Source: Gracilibacteraceae bacterium (GTDB lineage Bacteria; Bacillota; Desulfitobacteriia; Desulfitobacteriales; Syntrophobotulaceae). From it: 51,891 nucleotides of DNA. The stretch covers positions 1 to 51,891 of the forward strand of contig JAISAH010000134.1 in NCBI GenBank assembly GCA_031266805.1, given 5' to 3'. The position numbers and the translations under genes are program-made. Positions 36,383 through 51,891 of this stretch are shown here, piece by piece. Position 1 is the first letter of the stretch; the number at the start of each line of letters is the position of its first letter. The notes under the pieces were generated by a model. That model was not told where the DNA came from and did not search any database. It was given only the letters and a program-made list of their open reading frames with translations.

Positions 36383-37138
36383 ATGATAATAAAGCGTCTC
36401 AGCGGCAGGAGGGGCGCCGCCCTTTTGCTCATATTTGCTATGCTCTTGTCGCTCTTGCCGGTATTCAGCGGCCCGGCGCGGGCGGCGGAATTTACAGACG
36501 GGACTTTCACCGTTAACGACGCCGGGGAGATCACGGTCTACGCCGGTCTGGGGGGCGCGGTGACAATCCCGGGTACAGTGGACGGCGTAACAGTTAAAAG
36601 TATTAACATAGCAAGTAAACCGTTCGTTGGAAAGACAGAGATCACAAAAGTTGTTTTTCCCGCGCAGTTTGAATCTATTCCCAGCGGCACATCGGAATCG
36701 ACCGGCGCTTTTTCCAATTGTACCAATTTGACGGAAATTGAGTTTATGAACACGGACACAACGATTGGCAATAATGCTTTCGCGAACTGCACAAGCCTAG
36801 AAAGCGTTGATTTGCCGGAGAACTTAATGGCCATAGGCGGTAACGCCTTTTTTGCCTGTCACGCCTTGGAAAGCATTAAATGGCCTGTGAACTTGGAATC
36901 CCTGGGAACTGCCGCTTTCTTGAATTGTACAAGTCTGAAAAGTATTGTTCTGCCCAACAGCGTAAAAACCTTGGGAGGTAGTGTTTTCGCGCACTGTACA
37001 GGTCTGGAAGAAGTGATTTTGCCCGCGGGCTTAACGAGTGCGGGCACGGGCGTCTTTATGGGCTGTGCTCTGGAAAGCATTGACTTGCCGAACGGCTTGG
37101 AGACATTGGATGATAATTTTTTTCCAAAATTGCACTAA
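36383..37138 (+). CDS. BspA-type leucine-rich-repeat surface protein, N-terminal fragment before a frameshift
   Basis: About 251 residues: a signal peptide (GAALLLIFAMLLSLLPVFSGPARA) and then BspA-type LRR_5 repeats, each close to AFxNCTxLExVxLPxxLxxIG. The frame breaks at a T7 run (37117-37123): reading ends FFPKLH, but with six T it would continue FFQNCTNLTDVQLPANLQ, a perfect next repeat, into the frame ending at 42998. So this and the next feature are one gene of about 2204 residues. BspA-type repeats mediate surface adhesion in anaerobes. ATG start with AAGGAG. Confidence 0.8.
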   Translation: MIIKRLSGRRGAALLLIFAMLLSLLPVFSGPARAAEFTDGTFTVNDAGEITVYAGLGGAVTIPGTVDGVTVKSINIASKPFVGKTEITKVVFPAQFESIPSGTSESTGAFSNCTNLTEIEFMNTDTTIGNNAFANCTSLESVDLPENLMAIGGNAFFACHALESIKWPVNLESLGTAAFLNCTSLKSIVLPNSVKTLGGSVFAHCTGLEEVILPAGLTSAGTGVFMGCALESIDLPNGLETLDDNFFPKLH

Positions 37139-40100
37139 TTTAACTGATGTCCAATTGCCGGCGAATCTGCAAACAATAGGCATGTTTGCTTTTTCGGGCT
37201 GTACGAATTTAGAAACTATAGATCTGCCGCTTAACCTGACGACTATTAACAATGCTGCTTTTTCGGGATGTACGAAACTAGAAAGCATAGTCTTGCCGCC
37301 GAATCTGACGACTATACAAAACACTATTTTTGATGACACCGGTTTGAGTTCCGTGAATTGGGAGGACTGGCCGGCCGGACTGACGACGGCGGGAGGCTTT
37401 GGGAACGCCCCCATACCTGCCGAAGCCATAAACGGGATATTGCAAAAAGAGACTGTGACTGCCATAGGTGCTAACGCCTTTAGAGGCAACACCACGCTGG
37501 AGAAGCTCACCATCCCGGCAAACATCACATCTATAGGAAATTCAGCGTTTAGGGAAAGTAACATACAGAGTTTAACGGTATTATCGCCTAAAATTACAAC
37601 TACCACCGCTGCGTTTAACAGCTGCGCTCAGCTGACAAGCGTCGATATTTACTCGGCTGATGCTACAATAGCCGCCTCGACGTTTGCGAACTGTTCTAAG
37701 CTGACGAGCGTATCGATTCCAGGCTGGCAGGGCACGGTTGCCGGCAATACGTTTAACGGCTGTTCGGCTTTGGAAAATATCCTCCTGCCCGAAGGCGTTA
37801 AGGAAATTGGCACATCGCCTTTTGCCGGCACAAAAATAAAAGAATTAGTTTTCCCCTCGACCTTAAAAACTTTCGGCAACAATGTCATTAACAACAGCGG
37901 CAGCGTGGAAACCGTCGTCATTTTGGCCGAAGATTTTACGACGGCGGCCGGCGTGTCCGCTAATCTGGGCGCTAGCGTTTTCACAATCGCCGCCGGGCAG
38001 GCGCCTGTGGACATATACGCCTTACCCGGCACGGTCGCCTGGAACAAACTCCAGGCGAACACGACCGCGGCGACCAAGCATAAGATCAAATCCCTCGCTC
38101 CCGCAGTCCGGGCGACGATCCAGCAGCCGGACGGGACGCTGCTGTACGCGAACCCGGCCTTGAGGGCGCCTTATGATAACGCGGGCGCGGAGGACGGCGA
38201 GACGGTCGAGAGCTTCTATCTCGCCACCGCGCTGGACGCTTGGATCGCCGCGGTCGCGGATGGCGACCTCGGCAATGATATCACGCCGCCCGCGGCTTTC
38301 GCCCTGAACGGCGTGAAGCACGATTTCGGCGAAGCGGGCGCTTTTTCCCTCATTGAGGGGGACGAGCTGCACTTTTTCTCGGAAACAAGCCGGTTCATCT
38401 GGTTCGAGCGCGAGGACGCGCTGATCAACGAGATGTACGCCGCTCCGGGCCTCAACTACACAGTGACCCTGTGGGACGAGAACGGGTCGGTCGAGGATAC
38501 GCCGGTCTACGCGGCGAAATTCGCCGATATGGCCGATTACGCCGCGCGTTTTAGCACGGGGACTGTGTGGTCGCCTGTCGGCCAAAGCTCCCTGCCGGAC
38601 GCCGGCGGCCGGATTACGCTTAATTTTCCGGAGAACGGGGTATATCTCCTGACGGCCTACGACCCTAACGGCACGGGCCGCGTCGCTTACAACTTCCTCA
38701 CCGTCACAGTTTATGCCCCCGATAACAAACTCATCGCCGGCGCTCCCGTGGGCGAGCCTGAGCTGGATACGGGCACGGAACTCTCGTCCGGCTATCAGGC
38801 CGGAGATTTTGTCCAGATCGGCGACGGAGGGGCGCAGCTGGGCGCCGGCTTTGACCCTGACCACTTGAAATACACTCTCTACGTCAATGCCGAAACACAG
38901 AAACTGACTTTGCCGCTGGCGCGCTACTCGCTTGATTATCAGGGCAGCCTGACCCTCACCGCCGCGCTGGACGGCCAGACGGTTTTCGGCCCCGAGGCCG
39001 CGGACGGCGAGGGGCGTTGGGAGGGCCTTGGCCTCGACCTGAGCGCGGTGGGCGCCAGCGCCAAGCTCCTGCTGACGGCTTCATGCGAGGAAGCGGGAGA
39101 GACTTTTGAGCGCGTTTATGAGATCACCGTCACGCGCGACGCCAACATCGCCTACGCCGGGATACGCCATCTGGAGGGCGCTCTCGGTCTGGGCATCGGC
39201 CAGAGCGCGACGCTGTACGACGTTTTTGCCCGCGGCGCGGACTCTTATACTTTCTATATCCATCCCGGACAGACCGAAGCGGTGCTGGATGTGACCGTCG
39301 ACGGCGGCACGATCCTGTTTGCCGGCGGCGTGCAGCAAACAGAGACCGCCGCTCCAAACGTCTTCCGCGTGACTTTGGATTGCGAGAACGTCAATACCAC
39401 GCACACGCTGCGAACCTATCGCGGTGATACTAATACTACCGCAGAATATACCATAAAATTCCTGCCCCGTTCTTCGCGCGCCGGCGTGTTCACCCCTGAC
39501 CGCGTATATGACTACCGCGCCGCCGAAGGCCAGTTCGCCGGCCCGCTGTCCTACGCCCTCTGGGCTCTCGTCGCCCAGACCCACTATTATAAGTTCGTCT
39601 CGCTGGGGGGATTCGGCGGTTACGCCACCTACTATTACGACGATCCGATAGTCAACGACCCGCGCAACCCCTACGGCGTGGATTTCATCGTCTACGGCAA
39701 CGCCTTTGAGGGCGGTACGGCCGGCGAACCGGCCGGAGCGCAGGTCTCCTATGACGGCGAAACCTGGTACGATCTGGCCGGGCAGCGGCATTATGAACTC
39801 AACACCCGCTATGTACAGAACGTGCCGCTCTTGGACGGCGGGACGACGGAGAGCTTGCTGCTCTATAAGACAGGCGATTCCGGCAACCGCGATAAGACCA
39901 CCTGGGGCTACGCCGACGTGGCCAACAGCTCGGAGGTACTCTACGCCGAAAAACTCTGGTCGGTGAGAGCCACGCCATATAACCCTTACGGCGAGAACGC
40001 CGGCAAACCCTATATTACCATGCGCTATGACCCCTTTCCAACTGTGGTGTACGAATATCCGGGCGGCAACGTCGGCGATATGTTCGACCTGAGCTGGGCG

Positions 40101-42998
40101 GTGGACAAAGAAGGCCGGCCCGTCGAACTACCGGACGGCATCCGCTATATCCGCCTGCAGAACGTCATTGACGTGAAAAACCCAAGCACTGGCGAGGTCT
40201 CCCCGGAGATCGGGACGATCACCCGCGTGAACCCCGCGAGCGTCAGTTCCGCGGCGGTGGGTCTGACGGCCGCCCCGACCGCGCTGACCGTCAACGGCAT
40301 GAGTTTTGACGATTTTACCGGCGAAGTCATAACCAACAACGGCCAGACCACCTATTATGACCTCGACCTGAAAAAACTCGGCTCCAGCGTCGAAGTCGTC
40401 GTTAAAGGCGCCGAGGACGACAATATCTTCATCAATATGGAAGGCTACTACGGCGGCGAGGCCAAGTACACCGGCCTGCTGGACGAAAACTCCAGCCGCG
40501 TCGTCCGCGTCGTCGTCCAAAACGGTGAAGCGGAGCCGCGCATCTATGTTATCAACTGCGTAAACGGCGGCGACCCGGCGGCTAACGCCGATATCGACTC
40601 CATTTTGCTCGCGCCCGCCGAGGGCGACCCCAAGCTGCCGTTGGGCGACAGCGGCGCGTTTACGGCCTCCGTCGCTTCCAATGTGGAGCGCGTGACGCTT
40701 CAGGTCAGGGCGCTCAATCCCCAGGCCCGGATCGAGCTGCAGGCGGGCGGCGGCGAATATGCCCCCGTCAGTCACGATACCCAGACCGATTTTCTGGATC
40801 TGGCCGTAGGGGAGAACCGTTTTAACGTCAAAATCACCTCCGTAAACGGCGATGTTATCCAGACCTATCCGGTGGTGATCACCAGAGCCGAGACGCGCCC
40901 GGCCGATGAGATCACCGTGCGGTTCGCCCTGCGCGGCGACGATAAGCACGGGGAAGAAGGCGCGCACAATGCAAAATATTGGATCGGAACGGAAACAGTG
41001 TATGAAAAAGCGGTCGTTCCGGCGGAATCCACCGCCAAGTATCTGACCGATATGACGCTCATCAACCATGATTTACGCTTTGTGACCGTTGAAGGATTGT
41101 ATATCAGCCAAATTCAGATCCCCGGCAGCGACCCGGCCGAATATCTGGGCGAAAGGGATAACGGGCCTCAGTCCGGCTGGATGTACCGAGTCAACGGCGA
41201 ACTGGCCCCGGTCGGTTACGCTGACCTGATTCTACAAGACAGCGATATGGTGCTGTGGTTTTACTCGGACGACGGGGAGCTGGAAAAGGAGTATGAAGCG
41301 CCTCCCGCACCGCCGGCCGCCAATGTCGTCGTTACAGCCCCCGCCGGGGATGTGGAGATAATTGAAGATGAAACAACCGGCGCAGTCGCCGCCGCCGTCA
41401 CCGCGGACACGGCAGTTGTTGAAAGCGCGGTAGCCGACGCTCTCAATCAGGCGAACGCGGCGCGTGAAGACGGGGAAGAAAACGTCGTTACGACGGTGGA
41501 ACTGACAGTAGATGAATTTGAACAACAAGTGGACGCGGTCTACGTCGCCCTGCCGGCAGCGGCGGTCACGGCCCTGCTGGAAGTGGACGAGGTAACGCTT
41601 TTCACCCCGGTGGGTGAGATCAGTTTGGACCGGAAAGCTCTTGAAACCGCCGCCCGGGACGAGGAAACTCTGAATTTTGTCCTCGGCGGCCTGAACGAGG
41701 ACGCGGCGGCGGCGGAAGGTCTGCGGCTGCCGGAGACTGACAAGGCCCCGCGGGTCTATGAAATCAGGCTTTACAGCGTGGGAAGCGATACGGATGAAAC
41801 TATAATCACAAATCTTGGCGCCGGGCGGGCGAGACTCTCTCTGCCCTACGATCTGCCGTCTGGCGGGAATCAGGATTGGGTCGCCGTCTGGCATGTTCAA
41901 TCCGGCGCCGAAGCCGAAAAGCTGGACAAAGTGAGAAACCGGGTGGCCTATGCCAACTCCAGAGTCACCTTTACGCCAGACCATTTTTCTTATTACGCGG
42001 TCGGCTATGACCCGGTAACGGAGGTCGAGCCGCCTGAGCAGACTGATCCGGAGGATCCGCCTCCACCGCCCAAGCGGCCTATACCGAACGGCGGCAGCGG
42101 CCCGGTCTCGAATGTAACGCCGCCGACAGCCGTCCCGGTTGACCCCGCCGCGCCTGTCACGGTCAGCCGAGCCACCCTCTCTTATATCAGCGGCGCGGAC
42201 CGGGTCCTCACCTCCGTCGCCATATCCCGTCAGGGCTGGGAGAGCGCCGATACGGTGATCCTTGCCCCGGGTGGACAGAATAATTTGATCGACGCCCTGG
42301 CCGTAGCCCCGCTGGCCGGGCAGGAGGACGCGCCGATCTTACTCAGCACCGGCGGGCTTGACCCGGCGGTGGTCGCGGAGATCCAGCGCCTCGGCGCGAA
42401 GAAAGTCTATGCCGTCGGCGCTCTGAGCCAGGCGGTGATCGAGGCGCTACGGGCGGCGCTGCCCGGTCTCACGGTTGAGACTTTGCGCGGGGCGAGCCGG
42501 TTTGAGACGGCGGCCCTGATCGGGGCGAAACTGACCGAGCCGCAGGGCACGTTTGTCGTCGGCTATAACGCCGTGGCGGACGCTGTAAGCGCCGCCTCCT
42601 TCGCCGCTGCCCACGGTTATCTGATCCAGATCGCCGATCCCAGCGGCAATGTCACTGTGGCCGCGGGCACGCCGGCTACGGGCGCTCCGGTCTATATTCT
42701 GGGCGGCCCGGCCTTAGTGCGTGACATCTCCGGGGCGACGCGGCTCTACGGGGCGACGCGCTACGAGACGAACAAGGCCATCCGCGACGCTTTGCCCTTT
42801 GAGTACGCGAATATCTACACCGCGGACGGCGGCACCTTGGTCGACGCCCTGACCGGCTCGGCTCTCGCCGCCAAGAGCGGCGCCGCCATCGTCCTCACCC
42901 CGGGGAACGACCCGGCGGGCGTGGACTTCGGAGGCATCACCGCTGAGACTAAAGTTTACGCTTTTGGGGGTAACCGCGCGAGCGCACAGAGTGATTGA
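37038..42998 (+). CDS. Giant surface protein: LRR continuation, DUF4430 and CWB2 repeats (after frameshift)
   Basis: Protein-like translation starts at about 37117. LRR repeats continue to about 37950. Ig-like domains follow, then a domain with SLGGFGGYATYYYDDPIVND and VDFIVYGNAFEGG (about 39590-39960), a style I associate with surface proteins of anaerobes, possibly corrinoid-related. A DUF4430 domain lies at about 40905-41275 (YLGERDNGPQSGWMYRVNG, SDMVLWFYSDDG), then the ZU5-like region, proline linker and three CWB2 repeats (42157-42970). The last 600 residues are paralogous to the 22280-27397 protein. The end differs: the frame runs into an inverted repeat and stops at FGGNRASAQSD. Predicted wall-anchored, corrinoid-linked by riboswitch 2 and DUF4430. 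Confidence 0.82.
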   Translation: MRARASLWAVLWKALTCRTAWRHWMIIFFQNCTNLTDVQLPANLQTIGMFAFSGCTNLETIDLPLNLTTINNAAFSGCTKLESIVLPPNLTTIQNTIFDDTGLSSVNWEDWPAGLTTAGGFGNAPIPAEAINGILQKETVTAIGANAFRGNTTLEKLTIPANITSIGNSAFRESNIQSLTVLSPKITTTTAAFNSCAQLTSVDIYSADATIAASTFANCSKLTSVSIPGWQGTVAGNTFNGCSALENILLPEGVKEIGTSPFAGTKIKELVFPSTLKTFGNNVINNSGSVETVVILAEDFTTAAGVSANLGASVFTIAAGQAPVDIYALPGTVAWNKLQANTTAATKHKIKSLAPAVRATIQQPDGTLLYANPALRAPYDNAGAEDGETVESFYLATALDAWIAAVADGDLGNDITPPAAFALNGVKHDFGEAGAFSLIEGDELHFFSETSRFIWFEREDALINEMYAAPGLNYTVTLWDENGSVEDTPVYAAKFADMADYAARFSTGTVWSPVGQSSLPDAGGRITLNFPENGVYLLTAYDPNGTGRVAYNFLTVTVYAPDNKLIAGAPVGEPELDTGTELSSGYQAGDFVQIGDGGAQLGAGFDPDHLKYTLYVNAETQKLTLPLARYSLDYQGSLTLTAALDGQTVFGPEAADGEGRWEGLGLDLSAVGASAKLLLTASCEEAGETFERVYEITVTRDANIAYAGIRHLEGALGLGIGQSATLYDVFARGADSYTFYIHPGQTEAVLDVTVDGGTILFAGGVQQTETAAPNVFRVTLDCENVNTTHTLRTYRGDTNTTAEYTIKFLPRSSRAGVFTPDRVYDYRAAEGQFAGPLSYALWALVAQTHYYKFVSLGGFGGYATYYYDDPIVNDPRNPYGVDFIVYGNAFEGGTAGEPAGAQVSYDGETWYDLAGQRHYELNTRYVQNVPLLDGGTTESLLLYKTGDSGNRDKTTWGYADVANSSEVLYAEKLWSVRATPYNPYGENAGKPYITMRYDPFPTVVYEYPGGNVGDMFDLSWAVDKEGRPVELPDGIRYIRLQNVIDVKNPSTGEVSPEIGTITRVNPASVSSAAVGLTAAPTALTVNGMSFDDFTGEVITNNGQTTYYDLDLKKLGSSVEVVVKGAEDDNIFINMEGYYGGEAKYTGLLDENSSRVVRVVVQNGEAEPRIYVINCVNGGDPAANADIDSILLAPAEGDPKLPLGDSGAFTASVASNVERVTLQVRALNPQARIELQAGGGEYAPVSHDTQTDFLDLAVGENRFNVKITSVNGDVIQTYPVVITRAETRPADEITVRFALRGDDKHGEEGAHNAKYWIGTETVYEKAVVPAESTAKYLTDMTLINHDLRFVTVEGLYISQIQIPGSDPAEYLGERDNGPQSGWMYRVNGELAPVGYADLILQDSDMVLWFYSDDGELEKEYEAPPAPPAANVVVTAPAGDVEIIEDETTGAVAAAVTADTAVVESAVADALNQANAAREDGEENVVTTVELTVDEFEQQVDAVYVALPAAAVTALLEVDEVTLFTPVGEISLDRKALETAARDEETLNFVLGGLNEDAAAAEGLRLPETDKAPRVYEIRLYSVGSDTDETIITNLGAGRARLSLPYDLPSGGNQDWVAVWHVQSGAEAEKLDKVRNRVAYANSRVTFTPDHFSYYAVGYDPVTEVEPPEQTDPEDPPPPPKRPIPNGGSGPVSNVTPPTAVPVDPAAPVTVSRATLSYISGADRVLTSVAISRQGWESADTVILAPGGQNNLIDALAVAPLAGQEDAPILLSTGGLDPAVVAEIQRLGAKKVYAVGALSQAVIEALRAALPGLTVETLRGASRFETAALIGAKLTEPQGTFVVGYNAVADAVSAASFAAAHGYLIQIADPSGNVTVAAGTPATGAPVYILGGPALVRDISGATRLYGATRYETNKAIRDALPFEYANIYTADGGTLVDALTGSALAAKSGAAIVLTPGNDPAGVDFGGITAETKVYAFGGNRASAQSD
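42151..42975 (+). repeat. CWB2-coding direct repeat, copy 2
   Basis: Nearly identical to 26566-27390 and in the same orientation. Homologous recombination between the copies would remove 15.6 kb carrying hydS, the nitrogenase-like genes and riboswitch 2. Confidence 0.85.
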
Positions 42999-46173: not shown

Positions 46174-46590
46174 TTACTGCTGTTCCTGCACGGATTGACG
46201 CAGCTTCTGAACCTGATCGGCACAGCGCGTATAGATATCGCCGGCGTCTTTGACCGCTTTTTGCGCTTGAGATTCCACGATTTCGATCTCATCAGGATAG
46301 CGTACAATCACGGCATAAGGCGTCAAATATCCGCAGGCGCCTATGAACTCATGGAAAGAATCATCACAGTCTTCACACATTTGGCACAACCTGATGAGAT
46401 CATGCGTTTTTGGCGGTTCTATGTTGTGATATGACAAAAAAGCTTTCAATGCTTTTTCCGCTGATTGTTGGGCGTGAAAGCACGCCGCCTCCAATTCTTT
46501 GGGGTAAAAATCCTCAAGCAAACGCTTGGCAACGCGCAAATCGACGGTTGCTTTCTCAAACCACTTGCTGACTAAATCCGTTCCGCTCAT
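46174..46590 (-). CDS. HEPN-domain protein of a HEPN-MNT module
   Basis: 138-residue HEPN protein: KWFEKATVDLRVAKRLLED, ACFHAQQSAEKALKAFL and KTHDLIRLC are the family signatures. HEPN proteins of these pairs are RNases or toxins restrained by an MNT nucleotidyltransferase. The catalytic R-x4-6-H motif is not clearly present: the site reads VRYPDEIE, the RYP form seen in a subgroup. It overlaps the MNT gene by 35 bases and is translated after it. The module lies between two perfect 99-bp repeats and is lower in GC, consistent with recent gain. Confidence 0.85.
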   Translation of the reverse strand: MSGTDLVSKWFEKATVDLRVAKRLLEDFYPKELEAACFHAQQSAEKALKAFLSYHNIEPPKTHDLIRLCQMCEDCDDSFHEFIGACGYLTPYAVIVRYPDEIEIVESQAQKAVKDAGDIYTRCADQVQKLRQSVQEQQ

Positions 46591-46906
46591 ACAGCACGAC
46601 CCCCTCCCTCACAATTTTTCGTTGCATAGTAGGCTGTGTACTCAAATCCGCGAAGCGAGCCGCATGGTTAGCCAGTATGTCGATCGGCAAAACTCTTTTT
46701 GTTTTTCCGAGGTTTCGGTATATCTGCTGCATGACTTCCAGCGGCTGCTCGCTATCGTCCGGCAGCACCACATAGAAATCTAAATCGCTGTCCGCAGTCG
46801 GCTCACCATAGGCATAAGAGCCGAAGAGGTATATTTTTTCACAGTCCACAGTCTCTTTGATGACATCGGTTATCGCTTTAATTTCATCCTCTACTTGCCT
46901 TCTCAT
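46556..46906 (-). CDS. MNT-type nucleotidyltransferase antitoxin
   Basis: 116-residue minimal nucleotidyltransferase. The motif GSYAYGEPTADSDLDFYVV has the full G-S-x10-D-x-D pattern for metal and nucleotide binding. In studied HEPN-MNT pairs (MntA-HepT of Shewanella and Aphanizomenon) it AMPylates the HEPN toxin on a tyrosine and so silences it. The start is ATG. The leftward promoter in the second 99-bp repeat (TTGAGA 46956-46961, TATAAT 46933-46938) drives both genes. Confidence 0.88.
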   Translation of the reverse strand: MRRQVEDEIKAITDVIKETVDCEKIYLFGSYAYGEPTADSDLDFYVVLPDDSEQPLEVMQQIYRNLGKTKRVLPIDILANHAARFADLSTQPTMQRKIVREGVVLYERNGFSQQVV

Positions 46907-47082: not shown

Positions 47083-47352
47083 ATGAAATTGGTACGAGAA
47101 GCGACAGCGGGCACAACTGACGCCGGCGACATTGTGGTCACGGTGCTGCCGGGCGACAAACCGGGCATAACGGTGGATCTTAAAGGTAAATCCGTGGTAC
47201 TGAAGCAGTTCGGCGAACAGATGAAGGCCGTCATCCAGAAAACGGCGGAAGACTTGGGAGTGGAATCCGCAATTATCAAGGCGCAGGACAACGCCGCTCT
47301 TGATTACACGATTCGCGCCCGGACGCGCTGCGCCATCGAGCGGGCTAACTGA
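47083..47352 (+). CDS. citD: Citrate lyase acyl carrier (gamma) subunit CitD-like, lacking the prosthetic-group serine
   Basis: 89 residues aligning along their length with CitD: AGTTDAGD at 9-16, VVLKQFGEQMKAVIQKTAED, and DNAALDYTIRARTRCAIERA. In known CitD the stretch reads AGTLESSD or AGTLESGD and Ser14 carries the phosphoribosyl-dephospho-CoA arm. Here residue 14 is alanine (codon GCC), so the usual attachment is impossible unless a neighbouring threonine is used. The ATG has an AAGGGG site and follows the 99-bp repeat promoter. It is first in a citD-citE-citF operon that lacks citC, citX and citG. Confidence 0.85.
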   Translation: MKLVREATAGTTDAGDIVVTVLPGDKPGITVDLKGKSVVLKQFGEQMKAVIQKTAEDLGVESAIIKAQDNAALDYTIRARTRCAIERAN

Positions 47353-47369
47353 AAGGAGCGGAATAGATT

Positions 47370-48056
47370 ATGAAAAGCCTTATGATCGTGAATGCCAATA
47401 ACCCGAAAATTTTGCTGGACGCGGTATTATACGGCGCCGACGGCATAATGTTCGACCTAGCGGACTCCGTGCCGGATACGGAACAAGACGCCGCCCGTCT
47501 TCTGCTGGCGGAAGCTCTCGCTTTCCTTGACTATTCGGCGGTGGAAGTGGTCGTGCGCCCGAATTGCCCCTGCCAGAAGGATTTTGAGCTCGACATCCTA
47601 ACGGTCGGACCGAGTAAACCGTGTGATTTCGTCGTGCCCATGGCGACACCGGAGTTCGTGGCTCAGGCCGCCGCTTTGCTCGACCGGGTGGAAGCGGAAA
47701 ACGATTTGCCCGCCGGCGGCATTCGCCTGATCCCCTCCATTGACTCCGCGGTCGGCGTGGAAAACGTCGCCGCCGTCATCGCGGCTTCCCCGCGCGTGCG
47801 CGCCGTCATGTTTAACGCCAAGGAGTTTCTGGCCGATCTGGGCGCGGCGGCGGTCGGAGCGGAACAGCTCGTTTACGCCCGCAGCAAAATAGCGGTGGCC
47901 TGCCACGTCGCCGGGATCGATTCGCTGGACACGCCTTATACCGGCAAACCGGACGGACTGGCCGCCGACGCCGGCGCGGCGAAAGCGCTTGGTTTTACCG
48001 GCAAAGTCGCTTCCGACGGCAAGCAGGTCAAGACCATCAACGCCGTTTTTGCCTGA
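47370..48056 (+). CDS. citE: Citrate lyase beta subunit CitE-like, short and divergent
   Basis: 228 residues against about 290 for usual CitE. It keeps the start MKSLMIVNANNPKILLDAVL, YGADGIMFDL, VVVRPN and the end YARSKIAVACHVAGIDSLDT. Several residues tied to metal and substrate binding are changed: FDLEDAV reads FDLADSV, the IES motif reads IDS, and the GAEDY region reads NAKEF. So lyase activity is uncertain. It lies 17 bases after citD and 31 bases before citF. It could be an altered lyase acting on another acyl-CoA, or a decaying gene, though the frame is intact. Confidence 0.8.
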   Translation: MKSLMIVNANNPKILLDAVLYGADGIMFDLADSVPDTEQDAARLLLAEALAFLDYSAVEVVVRPNCPCQKDFELDILTVGPSKPCDFVVPMATPEFVAQAAALLDRVEAENDLPAGGIRLIPSIDSAVGVENVAAVIAASPRVRAVMFNAKEFLADLGAAAVGAEQLVYARSKIAVACHVAGIDSLDTPYTGKPDGLAADAGAAKALGFTGKVASDGKQVKTINAVFA

Positions 48057-48087
48057 GAATTTTTAAGAAAGTGGGGAAAATAATACG

Positions 48088-49650
48088 ATGAAAAATGTTC
48101 TCGGACGGGAATTTCCGGAATATATCGAGGGCTACGGTCAGGTAAAGCCCTTTATCGGCGCTTTTAGCAGCTATGGAGAGCGGAAGACGGTCGGCGCCAG
48201 ACGCCAAAGCGTAAAACCGGCGAGCCAGACGCCGCCCGGCGAGGCCAAGCTTTGCCAGAGCATAGAAGAAGTTTTTGACCGCGTCGGCGCCAGAGACGGC
48301 ATGACTTTTGGTTTTCATCATCATCTGCGCAACGGGGACTATGTCCTGAATCTCGTGATGAAAGCCGCGGCGGAGCGGGGGCTCAAGGATCTGCACGTGG
48401 CGGCCACAGGCATCTTCGGCTGTCACGGCCCCATAGTCGAATACATCAAATCCGGCGTCATCACCCAGATCTCCTGCAGCTACATCTCGCCCGGCCCGGT
48501 GGCCAAAGCCATCACGACCGGCCTTTTGCAAAAACCGGCCATCTTCCGCAGCCACGGCGGGCGGCCTCGCGCGATCGAAAGCGGCGACATGCACATAGAC
48601 GTGGCTTTTGCCGCCTCTCCCACCTGCGATCCTTACGGCAACGTCAACGGCACGCACGGCAAATCTGCCTGCGGCGTGCTTTCCTATATTTTCCCCGACA
48701 CGGAATACGCCGATTATGTGGTCGCCGTCACGGATAATCTCGTCGAGTACCCCGCGCCGCCGCCCATACAGATAACGCAGGAAAAAGTGGATTTTGTCCT
48801 CGTCGTCGACAGCATCGGCGACCCGGCCGGCATCGCCTCGGGAACGACGCGCGTGACCACGGATCCCATCGGGCTGCGCATCGCCGAGTCGGCCGCCGCG
48901 CTCTTGGACGAGGCCGGTTATATCAAAAACGGCATGTCGCTGCAAACGGGGGCGGGCGGCGCGTCGCTGGCCGTGGCCGCTTTTGTGCGGGAGCGTATGC
49001 TGGCCAATGGCGTGGTCGGCGCTTTCGGCGCGGGCGGCATAACGTCTTATTTTGTCCAAATGCTGAAAGAAGGGCTGCTCCGGGCGTTGTTCGACGTGCA
49101 GTGCTTTGATCTGGATTCGGTCAAATCCGCTGGGGAAAACCCCGCCCATATGCTGATGAGCGGTTCGCTTTACGGCAACCCACACAGCCGCGGCGCCGTC
49201 GTCAATAACCTCGACATCATGATCCTCGGCGCGACCGAGGTGGATCTGGATTTCAACGTCAACGTCGTCACCGGTTCCGACGGGACGATCATGGGCGCGT
49301 CCGGCGGGCATAACGACTGCTCGGCCGGCTCGAAGATCGCCATAGTCGTGTCCAATCTGCTGAAAGGCCGGCTCTGCATGGTGCGCGACCGCGTGACCAC
49401 TATCACTTCCCCCGGCGAAACGATCGACGTGCTGGTAACAGACCGCGGCATAGCCATAAACCCGCTGCGCAAGGATCTGTTGGAAAAATTAAAAGACTCG
49501 GATCTGCCCCTCACGGATATAAAAACGCTGAAGGAATTCGGGGAAAACCTGACCGGCAAACCCGACACGATCGAGTTCACGGATAAAATCGTCGCCGTGG
49601 TCGAATACCGCGACGGCACAGTGATAGACGTAGTGCGCCAGCCCAAGTAA
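48088..49650 (+). CDS. citF: Citrate lyase alpha subunit (CoA/ACP transferase) CitF
   Basis: 520-residue CitF, near the family length and apparently complete. Conserved stretches include TFGFHHHLRNGDYVLNLVM, AATGIFGCHGPIVEYI, SHGGRPRAIESGDMHIDVAF, NVNGTHGKSACG, LQTGAGGASLAVAAFV and TGSDGTIMGASGGHND. The protein swaps citrate for acetate on the acyl carrier arm in normal citrate lyase. As the partner CitD lacks its arm-bearing serine, CitF may instead work as a free CoA transferase. Last gene of the operon, with a hairpin terminator 27 bases after the stop. Confidence 0.92.
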   Translation: MKNVLGREFPEYIEGYGQVKPFIGAFSSYGERKTVGARRQSVKPASQTPPGEAKLCQSIEEVFDRVGARDGMTFGFHHHLRNGDYVLNLVMKAAAERGLKDLHVAATGIFGCHGPIVEYIKSGVITQISCSYISPGPVAKAITTGLLQKPAIFRSHGGRPRAIESGDMHIDVAFAASPTCDPYGNVNGTHGKSACGVLSYIFPDTEYADYVVAVTDNLVEYPAPPPIQITQEKVDFVLVVDSIGDPAGIASGTTRVTTDPIGLRIAESAAALLDEAGYIKNGMSLQTGAGGASLAVAAFVRERMLANGVVGAFGAGGITSYFVQMLKEGLLRALFDVQCFDLDSVKSAGENPAHMLMSGSLYGNPHSRGAVVNNLDIMILGATEVDLDFNVNVVTGSDGTIMGASGGHNDCSAGSKIAIVVSNLLKGRLCMVRDRVTTITSPGETIDVLVTDRGIAINPLRKDLLEKLKDSDLPLTDIKTLKEFGENLTGKPDTIEFTDKIVAVVEYRDGTVIDVVRQPK

Positions 49651-49747: not shown

Positions 49748-50365
49748 CTATACTTTTATACCAGTTAATGAAATAATATTTTCTTTAAAATCCTGGTATT
49801 CAGTTCCTTTTGTTGAAACCAGTTGGGACATTATATAGAATTTATTAGTTGTAGGTGATTCCTTTTTTGCTGTTTCTATATCCATACGATCCACATTTAC
49901 AACTGTCCAACATTCTACATAACCGTTTTGTTTTGCTTTTTGATGACTTTTTTCTGCTTCTCCAACACGATTGTGTATGTTTGAAAAATCTTTACCACCT
50001 TTTACTTCGATGGCGACAATATTTCTATAATGATTTTTACCAATTTCTTCTCGTATTACAATATCCGGGTCTGATGCAAATTCTATTAAGACTTTTCTAT
50101 CAGCCGCGTTTGTGATAGTAATTTTACTTTTATTAGACTCTGAAGCGGTTATTGATTTTTCCACAATGGTATGTATAATATTAAAAACATCTATAATTCC
50201 GGCAGTACCTTTTTCTACATTGGCAGCACCTCTTAATTGAGGTCCAATGGTTAATAGAGTAAGATCATCAATGAATTTACTGTTTAGGTTTTCTGAAGAT
50301 AATTCTTCCGCTAGCGGGAGTTTACAAGTTAACCCATCGCAAATCCACATAAACCTTGCAATCAA
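49748..50365 (-). CDS. XcyI-like type II restriction endonuclease, N-terminally truncated by an IS
   Basis: 205 residues, AT-rich. The region ASDPDIVIREE followed by IVAIEVKGGKDFSNIHN fits a PD-(D/E)xK nuclease core (Asp, then Glu-x-Lys), and NRVGEAEKSHQKAKQNG and ECWTVVNV resemble XcyI/Cfr9I-type enzymes that cut CCCGGG. Such enzymes are over 300 residues, so about a third is missing. The first about 15 residues (MIARFMWICDGLTCK) are coded by sequence that looks like the end of the adjacent IS. No methyltransferase partner is in the window; it may lie beyond the IS. Probably inactive. Confidence 0.6.
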   Translation of the reverse strand: MIARFMWICDGLTCKLPLAEELSSENLNSKFIDDLTLLTIGPQLRGAANVEKGTAGIIDVFNIIHTIVEKSITASESNKSKITITNAADRKVLIEFASDPDIVIREEIGKNHYRNIVAIEVKGGKDFSNIHNRVGEAEKSHQKAKQNGYVECWTVVNVDRMDIETAKKESPTTNKFYIMSQLVSTKGTEYQDFKENIISLTGIKV

Positions 50366-51891
50366 AGGGATTCAGAGGCTATATCCCTGATTACCTAACT
50401 GTATTTTTGTTTGAGATCATAGGCTGCCTCAATAGCCTGAGCAATCTCACTGCCACGGATAAAAGATTCTATCTTTTCAGGATGTTCAATATCCCCTAAA
50501 AAAGTTGTTACCTTCTTGATCCTTGACATCTCATTGATCAATTGATCAATAGTTATCCGGATGCTCTTTGCCGAAAGCTCTTTCACGAGAAGGCAGCACA
50601 AACGATATGCCAAGACGCAAGTGAACATATGAATCCGGATTTGAGTGTCTGTCCAATGAAAAATTGGTCTTACAGTCAAATGCTTGGAGTCTTTCATTTG
50701 CCGAAACGCATGTTCCACATGCCATGCGCTGCGATATGCGCATATAATTTCTTCATTGGAAAAATCGTCTCGATCTGTAAACAAAGCCGTCTTACCCAGA
50801 GTTTCCTCTCGGATACGCTCCAAGACCTCGCAAGATGCCCCGAAAGTTAAATATAACTTATTGTCACTTTCAATAACCTCATAGCTGAAGATATTCTTCA
50901 TATATTCCACTTTCAAAATGTCCTCCACTGCCTTTGTTACACTATCGCATGTTGGCTTCCTCCCCTTTACGATCTCGCCTCTGGCGCGTTTCATCAGTTT
51001 CTCCTGAAGCTCCAACAACTTGCCTGCCGTCTTTTCGCGGTTAAGCAAAATCCCCTGCATTTGCCCTTTCTCAAGTTCCGGATTGTACACTATGACGGCA
51101 CTTACCTTTTGCCCATAAACGTCAACGCTCATGCGGTAAGCGGATTGACCAGCCAAGGAATCGCCTGATAACGGAGTATATTCTGTTTTGCTGATCGCCC
51201 ACAATTCAGATGCTTGATTCTTCTTTAGTCCGCCAACGTAATGTAAAGGACAATCACCGGACGTCAACAGTTCGATATTATCTTCTGAATTATTACCACG
51301 GTCGAATATCACCGTTACATCAGTCCTTTTACCAGTCAAAGCTTGACAACGGGTCTTTAACCTCTTCATCATGACGGCAAACTCCTTTGTGTCGTGCATG
51401 TTTCCGGGATAAGTCTCATGAATAAGCGGAATAGAGAAGTCCGGGGATACCATGAGGGACATGGCGACAATGCGCAGGTCGTTCCGTTTCTCCTTGTTGT
51501 GTCCACGTTTGGGGAGTTCACAGTTCTGCATTGTATCAATAAAAGTGAAAAAGTTCGTAGCATCATAGATCAAATGGGAAGTATCTATATCATAGACATC
51601 AAGCATTTTTGACAAGATTGCGTCTTCTATCGCCTCAATGTTCGCTTCTGAAATTTTGCTGGTATTATTCCAGAAATTCTGGGGAGTGAAACTTGTCGGT
51701 CTTATCCCCGTCAAGCATGGAAGACATGTATTGGCGTACCACTCCCCGAGTCCCTTAGTAGAAGACGGAGCGACAGCACGGTTTATAGGGGTGTAGATAT
51801 TTTTAGCTGGTAAAATGGGAACGCATGAATTGTAAATCTCTGGGAGGAATTGCACATCATTTTGGTATTTGCCTGCAACTGTTGTAATACC
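50330..51891 (-). mobile_element. IS1634-like insertion sequence, partial at window edge
   Basis: A single transposase gene fills the element; the left boundary lies between about 50300 and 50394, where the truncated endonuclease sequence gives way to non-coding DNA (GGATTTGCGATGGGTTAA on the minus strand is a candidate end). The right end lies beyond the window, so terminal repeats and target duplication cannot be checked. Confidence 0.7.
50395..51891 (-). CDS. IS1634-family (IS4 group) DDE transposase, 5' end outside window
   Basis: At least 498 residues. The catalytic triad regions are visible: LIYDATNFFTFID (first Asp), VTVIFDRGNNSEDN (second Asp), and YRSAWHVEHAFRQMKDSKHL (Glu with the Y-x-R/K pattern), followed by VRPIFHWTDTQIRIHMFTCV, as in IS1634-type transposases. 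The frame stays open to the last base of the window (GITTVAGKYQNDVQFLPE), so the GTG at 51855 is not the true start. No frameshift seen; the element may be active. It interrupts the XcyI-like gene. Confidence 0.88.
   Translation of the reverse strand, partial: GITTVAGKYQNDVQFLPEIYNSCVPILPAKNIYTPINRAVAPSSTKGLGEWYANTCLPCLTGIRPTSFTPQNFWNNTSKISEANIEAIEDAILSKMLDVYDIDTSHLIYDATNFFTFIDTMQNCELPKRGHNKEKRNDLRIVAMSLMVSPDFSIPLIHETYPGNMHDTKEFAVMMKRLKTRCQALTGKRTDVTVIFDRGNNSEDNIELLTSGDCPLHYVGGLKKNQASELWAISKTEYTPLSGDSLAGQSAYRMSVDVYGQKVSAVIVYNPELEKGQMQGILLNREKTAGKLLELQEKLMKRARGEIVKGRKPTCDSVTKAVEDILKVEYMKNIFSYEVIESDNKLYLTFGASCEVLERIREETLGKTALFTDRDDFSNEEIICAYRSAWHVEHAFRQMKDSKHLTVRPIFHWTDTQIRIHMFTCVLAYRLCCLLVKELSAKSIRITIDQLINEMSRIKKVTTFLGDIEHPEKIESFIRGSEIAQAIEAAYDLKQKYS

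Follow-up and report, generated by a model that had tools for sequence, protein, structure and literature searches.

The citrate lyase-like operon and its gene models

The window, the whole stretch of 51,891 nucleotides that was analysed, contained three citrate lyase genes, citDEF only, in the order citD-citE-citF. The carrier protein of this operon lacked the serine that bears the prosthetic group. The citDEF variant very probably no longer splits citrate and is instead a related enzyme that moves CoA between acids. The first gene (47083..47352, + strand) encoded a CitD-like protein of 89 residues, which matched PF06857 with 84.6 bits and TIGR01608 with 77.3 bits (cut-off 63.5). It was separated by 17 bases from the gene of a short CitE-like protein of 228 residues (47370..48056, + strand; PF03328, 111 bits; TIGR01588, 135.8 bits, cut-off 443.4). 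A gap of 31 bases led to the gene of a CitF-like protein of 520 residues, an acyl transferase with a CoA-transferase fold (48088..49650, + strand; PF04223, 575 bits; TIGR01584, 627 bits, cut-off 501). CitD and CitF were above the cut-offs of the curated family models and CitE was far below.

Beside the short operon, no conserved neighbour genes hinting at a substrate were found beyond close relatives. Directly upstream of citD, on the opposite strand, was a HEPN (PF05168) and MNT-type nucleotidyltransferase (PF18765) pair (46174–46906, − strand), a typical HEPN/MNT toxin-antitoxin pair. In the stretch 49748–51855 (− strand), an XcyI-type restriction endonuclease (PF09571) covered profile positions 123–304 of 305, without the N-terminal part. 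A DDE transposase gene (PF01609) was located immediately upstream of the endonuclease gene, which was probably interrupted by this insertion element. An open frame of 1986 residues (37038–42995, + strand) with BspA-type leucine-rich repeats, Cadherin-like and DUF4430 regions, and three CWB2 cell-wall-binding stretches encoded a large surface protein.

Carrier protein and prosthetic-group genes

The window CitD (MKLVREATAGTTDAGD...) carried Ala14, within the sequence GTTDAGD, at the site of the prosthetic-group serine, and thus lacked the residue required in the citrate lyase holo-enzyme (EC 4.1.3.6). A serine occupied position 14 in 34 of 34 canonical CitDs compared, and the Ala14 described in the first-pass annotation was confirmed. 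Alanine was found at this position in all five species of the window's genus. Across the 20 operons with a short CitE, position 14 was Ser in ten, Ala in six, Thr in two, and Asn and Lys in one each, and the tree required three or more switches between Ser and another residue. Half of the short-CitE operons thus kept Ser14. Other hydroxyl residues were present near the site: position 12 was Thr or Ser in the genus of the window, and several relatives had Ser15. The window CitD also contained a two-residue insertion (KxV), which was typical of the clade in the alignment.

The genes required for the prosthetic group of the holo-enzyme, citX (PF03802) and citG (PF01874), and the ligase gene citC (TIGR00124), required for acetylation of the carrier thiol, gave no match in the window's genome (3.38 Mb, 95% complete), and the E. 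coli control was positive for all three profiles. Their absence, first noted around the operon, thus extended to the whole genome. The search for citC covered the window's genome, and that for citX and citG covered all 19 genomes with the short-type operon only (the window's genome and 18 others) and 23 genomes with a full-length CitE. CitX and CitG were each found in 0 of the 19 short-only genomes, and both genes were found in 23 of the 23 full-length genomes, among which G054 was counted although it carries both operon types. The association with CitE type gave a Fisher p of 2e-12, which is descriptive because the genomes are related and kinship was not corrected for. Several of the short-only genomes were single-contig assemblies, so the absence of citX and citG is not explained by MAG incompleteness. 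The same contrast was observed within a single genus (g15), where three genomes (G032, G033, and G049) had the short type only and neither citX nor citG, whereas congeners with full-length operons had both. The CitG/MdcB family, the source of the substrate for MdcG-type transferases, was absent as well. In one canonical operon (G052:C239), the CitG match was split over two open frames, which is a possible frameshift or assembly error.

A carrier without its prosthetic group, as the first-pass annotation had suggested, was strongly supported by this distribution. The prosthetic-group genes were missing even in the members with Ser14; therefore, Ala14 looks like a late symptom of the loss of the prosthetic group and not its cause.

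Structure and active site of the short CitE

The window CitE was composed of 228 residues, compared with about 290–304 in full-length CitE, and contained FDLADSV for FDLEDAV, IDSA for IETA, and NAKEFLADLG for GAEDLTADLG; the deficit of about 60 residues and the altered motifs reported at first sight were both upheld. At the positions of the Mg2+ ligands, Glu was replaced by Asp and Asp by Glu, and DLED was changed to DLAD. A frameshift or assembly error in citE was considered and rejected, since the end point was identical in 20 genomes; moreover, no lid remnant fits into the 31-base gap to citF, which also argues against a frameshift.

The AlphaFold model of the short CitE (pLDDT 91.4) had eight strands and a complete TIM barrel. 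The best Foldseek matches were malyl-CoA lyase (E 3e-16), CitE, and CLYBL, with TM-scores of 0.78–0.91 by query length. The HpcH/HpaI (CitE-like) TIM barrel fold was thus assigned by PF03328, AlphaFold, and Foldseek. In malyl-CoA lyases, Mg2+ is coordinated by two barrel residues, a Glu and an Asp, and a bend formed by a Phe-Ser/Thr-Pro linker is the hinge to a C-terminal lid, which gives a presumed catalytic Asp, with a presumed role in the first catalytic step, to the neighbouring subunit (PMC3832036). The short CitE ended at the hinge phenylalanine, and the lid with the catalytic Asp was gone.

The lid Asp was kept in none of the 20 short CitEs. The Mg2+ Asp was kept in two and the Mg2+ Glu in 11, never both together, so that at least one ligand was changed in each protein; the DLED motif was changed in all 20. 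The position of the Mg2+ Asp is unconstrained in the window's genus, where Glu, Glu, Asn, Lys, and Lys were found instead. Among the strictly conserved columns of canonical CitE, 16 of 49 were fully kept in the short clade. The most degenerate short CitE (L107, genome G030) had Val in place of the Arg of the VRIN motif and Arg in place of the Mg2+ Glu.

The lid Asp and the Mg2+ Glu and Asp required in the citrate lyase holo-enzyme (EC 4.1.3.6) were therefore missing from the window CitE. The first-pass annotation had proposed that the complex might work on free CoA esters. Because the truncation removes the lid with the catalytic Asp and the Mg2+ ligand set is gone, a working lyase on such esters is unlikely, and only the transferase step of CitF is likely to survive.

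Conservation of CitF

The impression that CitF was intact was corroborated by the curated model, and the protein belongs by sequence to the class II ACP (CoA) transferase family, on the basis of both the curated cut-off and the conserved columns. Across the short-CitE clade, 71 of the 86 strictly conserved columns of canonical CitF were fully kept, and the GGHxD region was aligned with that of other CoA-transferases; by sequence, CitF is intact. Solved structures are available for the homologues 2hj0 and 1xr4. In addition, 17 positions of CitF were fixed or nearly so in the clade and rare in canonical CitF, and one of them was inside the GGH-x-D motif; N409, G359, L361, G363, R264, and A223 (numbered as in the window CitF) are examples. 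These clade-specific residues make a new substrate, the other proposal made at first sight, possible. The isolated alpha subunit of citrate lyase accepts free CoA esters (EC 2.8.3.10).

Origin, distribution, and selection

The short-CitE operon was present in 20 genomes of the order, a group of anaerobic bacteria. In the CitF tree (52 sequences), the 20 short-CitE operons were placed on one side of a single branch with support of 100/100, and the short clade was recovered with support of 99 in a CitE tree calculated from the barrel columns only, with the lid trait left out. The short type thus has a single origin. Its sister group in the CitF tree comprised the canonical operons from Clostridium ljungdahlii and C. 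ragsdalei (L029 and L030), which, unlike the short clade, have a full-length CitE and Ser14 (GTLESND). A citE-citF pair from Phycisphaerae (L052), with no clear CitD by BLAST, had a very long CitF branch.

Four more species of the window's genus had the same operon, with Ala14 and a short CitE, and their CitE proteins were 85–95% identical. Short CitEs of 228–250 residues were also found in relatives from the same family and from a sister family. Beyond the order, none was found among the remaining genomes of the class or among 398 genomes sampled from the phylum. Outside the family, a contig search with the short CitE profile gave full-length relatives and no short ones; its patterns missed the sister-family members, so this search by itself is no proof that the short form is absent from other groups.

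Within the window's genus, pairwise dN/dS was 0.07–0.20 for citD, 0.11–0.21 for citE, and 0.02–0.07 for citF, so that all three genes were under purifying selection. All frames in the genus were open, with no stops or frameshifts, so that none of the signs of a pseudogene (dN/dS near 1, stops, frameshifts) was observed. Clade-specific conserved residues were present in CitF, CitE, and CitD. Simple decay had been envisaged for the case that close relatives kept Ser14 and selection was relaxed; some relatives do combine Ser14 with a short CitE, but selection was not relaxed.

Proposed function and alternative explanations

In classical citrate lyase, as outlined in PMC6232273, the alpha subunit exchanges the acetyl-carrier for the citryl-carrier and the beta subunit cleaves. 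With no carrier, lid, or metal site, this cleavage cycle cannot run as known, and the sequences strongly support the view that classical citrate lyase activity has been lost. The transferase half is intact and its family accepts free CoA thioesters, so a CoA-transferase acting on free acyl-CoA is proposed. The operon probably encodes a prosthetic-group-free complex, in which free CoA esters would be substrates of CitF, working as a CoA-transferase, and CitD and CitE would be non-catalytic partners. Such a complex would be derived from citrate lyase but would now do without the phosphoribosyl-dephospho-CoA prosthetic group, and it would have given up C–C cleavage. CitF would exchange CoA between two partners, a free acyl-CoA (probably acetyl-CoA) and a carboxylic acid that is citrate or closely resembles it. 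Apo-CitD and the CitE barrel without its lid would persist next to CitF in a structural or regulatory role. Sequence comparison shows that the genes for the prosthetic group, the lid, and the metal ligands have been lost, that the short type arose once, that all three genes are under purifying selection, and that CitF is intact; the activity of CitF on free CoA esters, the persistence of a three-protein complex, and the acid used are inferred. Several observations weigh against this reading: Ser14 is kept by half of the clade, in which another modification of CitD is conceivable; CitD and CitE are still under purifying selection and hence have some role; and the gene neighbourhood gives no conserved hint of a substrate.

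A tentative variant of the CoA-transferase reading, which is possible but doubtful, combines it with a lyase encoded elsewhere. The complex would be a carrier-free descendant with CitD and CitE as non-catalytic partners and a changed acid substrate, and its free acyl-CoA would be fed to a stand-alone lyase, so that an ACP-bound two-step enzyme would have become a soluble CoA pathway. A two-part cleavage of citrate (or citramalate or malate) on free CoA, in which the acyl-CoA made by CitF is cleaved by a full-length CitE-like lyase from another locus, is unlikely. The window's genome, like most in the order, has a separate gene for a full-length CitE-like or malyl-CoA-lyase-like protein, as such a pathway would require. 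In the window's genome this gene adjoins a malic enzyme gene (L109:2887–5179), with no ligase pair there, and at two further loci (L110:4457–9419 and L113:4706–9810) an apparent operon comprises succinate/malate-CoA ligase-like beta and alpha subunits, a full-length CitE-like lyase, and a malic enzyme. However, the stand-alone lyase also occurs in genomes without citDEF, the two loci are unlinked, and its pairing with malic enzyme suggests a malyl-CoA metabolism in which CitF has no part.

It is improbable that CitDEF as a whole is no longer enzymatic and instead senses or regulates citrate or acyl-CoA. Such a role would suit an isolated operon in which two subunits out of three seem to have lost catalysis, but in CitF nearly every column that is strictly conserved in the family is kept, the GGHxD region included. 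A working citrate lyase with a carrier charged by an unrecognised route, through another CitD residue, an unrelated transferase, or 4'-phosphopantetheine, is somewhat less probable still: an attachment site could be offered by the Thr or Ser at position 12 of the genus members, by the Ser15 of several relatives, or by Ser14 in half of the clade, whereas the absence of CitX and CitG from every short-only genome argues against charging, and cleavage by a CitE without the lid and metal ligand set should fail whatever the carrier. Finally, a decaying, non-functional leftover of a citrate lyase operon, which the lost CitE active-site residues and CitD serine, the missing activation genes, and the unconserved context might suggest, was rejected as highly improbable on account of the dN/dS values in the genus (0.02–0.21, with each of the three genes far under 0.25), one ancient origin, persistence across several genera, the clade-specific conserved residues, and the uninterrupted frames.

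Comparison with known systems and implications

The open-access literature, to which the search was confined, contained no description of a short-CitE variant and no experiment on any member of the clade. The operon resembles classical citrate lyase (CitDEF with CitC, CitX, and CitG; EC 4.1.3.6) in gene order, subunit folds, and the scores of CitD and CitF above the curated cut-offs. It differs in the missing citC, citX, and citG, in CitD position 14, which is free to vary, and in a CitE without the lid and Mg2+ ligand set.

Malonate decarboxylase uses the same kind of prosthetic group, and its MdcA is a class II ACP transferase that shares with CitF the CoA-transferase-type fold and the logic of direct transfer; its MdcC belongs to the same carrier family as CitD, PF06857 (PMC5534430). 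MdcA was not among the CitF profile matches. MdcC keeps its modified Ser25 and is charged (PMC5534430), whereas the carrier of the short clade is not chargeable by the known route. Stand-alone CitE-like lyases acting on free CoA, such as RipC, CLYBL, and malyl-CoA lyase, share the HpcH/HpaI TIM barrel with the short CitE; unlike it, they keep the lid, the catalytic Asp, and both Mg2+ ligands (PMC3832036).

Two of the three genes pass the curated citrate lyase models, and genome papers infer a reductive TCA cycle from such annotation, as for Desulfitobacterium hafniense (PMC3306737), in which the gene may or may not be of the short type. These reductive TCA inferences would fail in the order if citrate is not cleaved by the short type. 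The clade is also a natural experiment, in which a swinging-arm enzyme complex would have survived the loss of its arm. With carrier and lyase subunits still under selection after their chemistry has gone, the structural roles of CitD and CitE would be directly testable.
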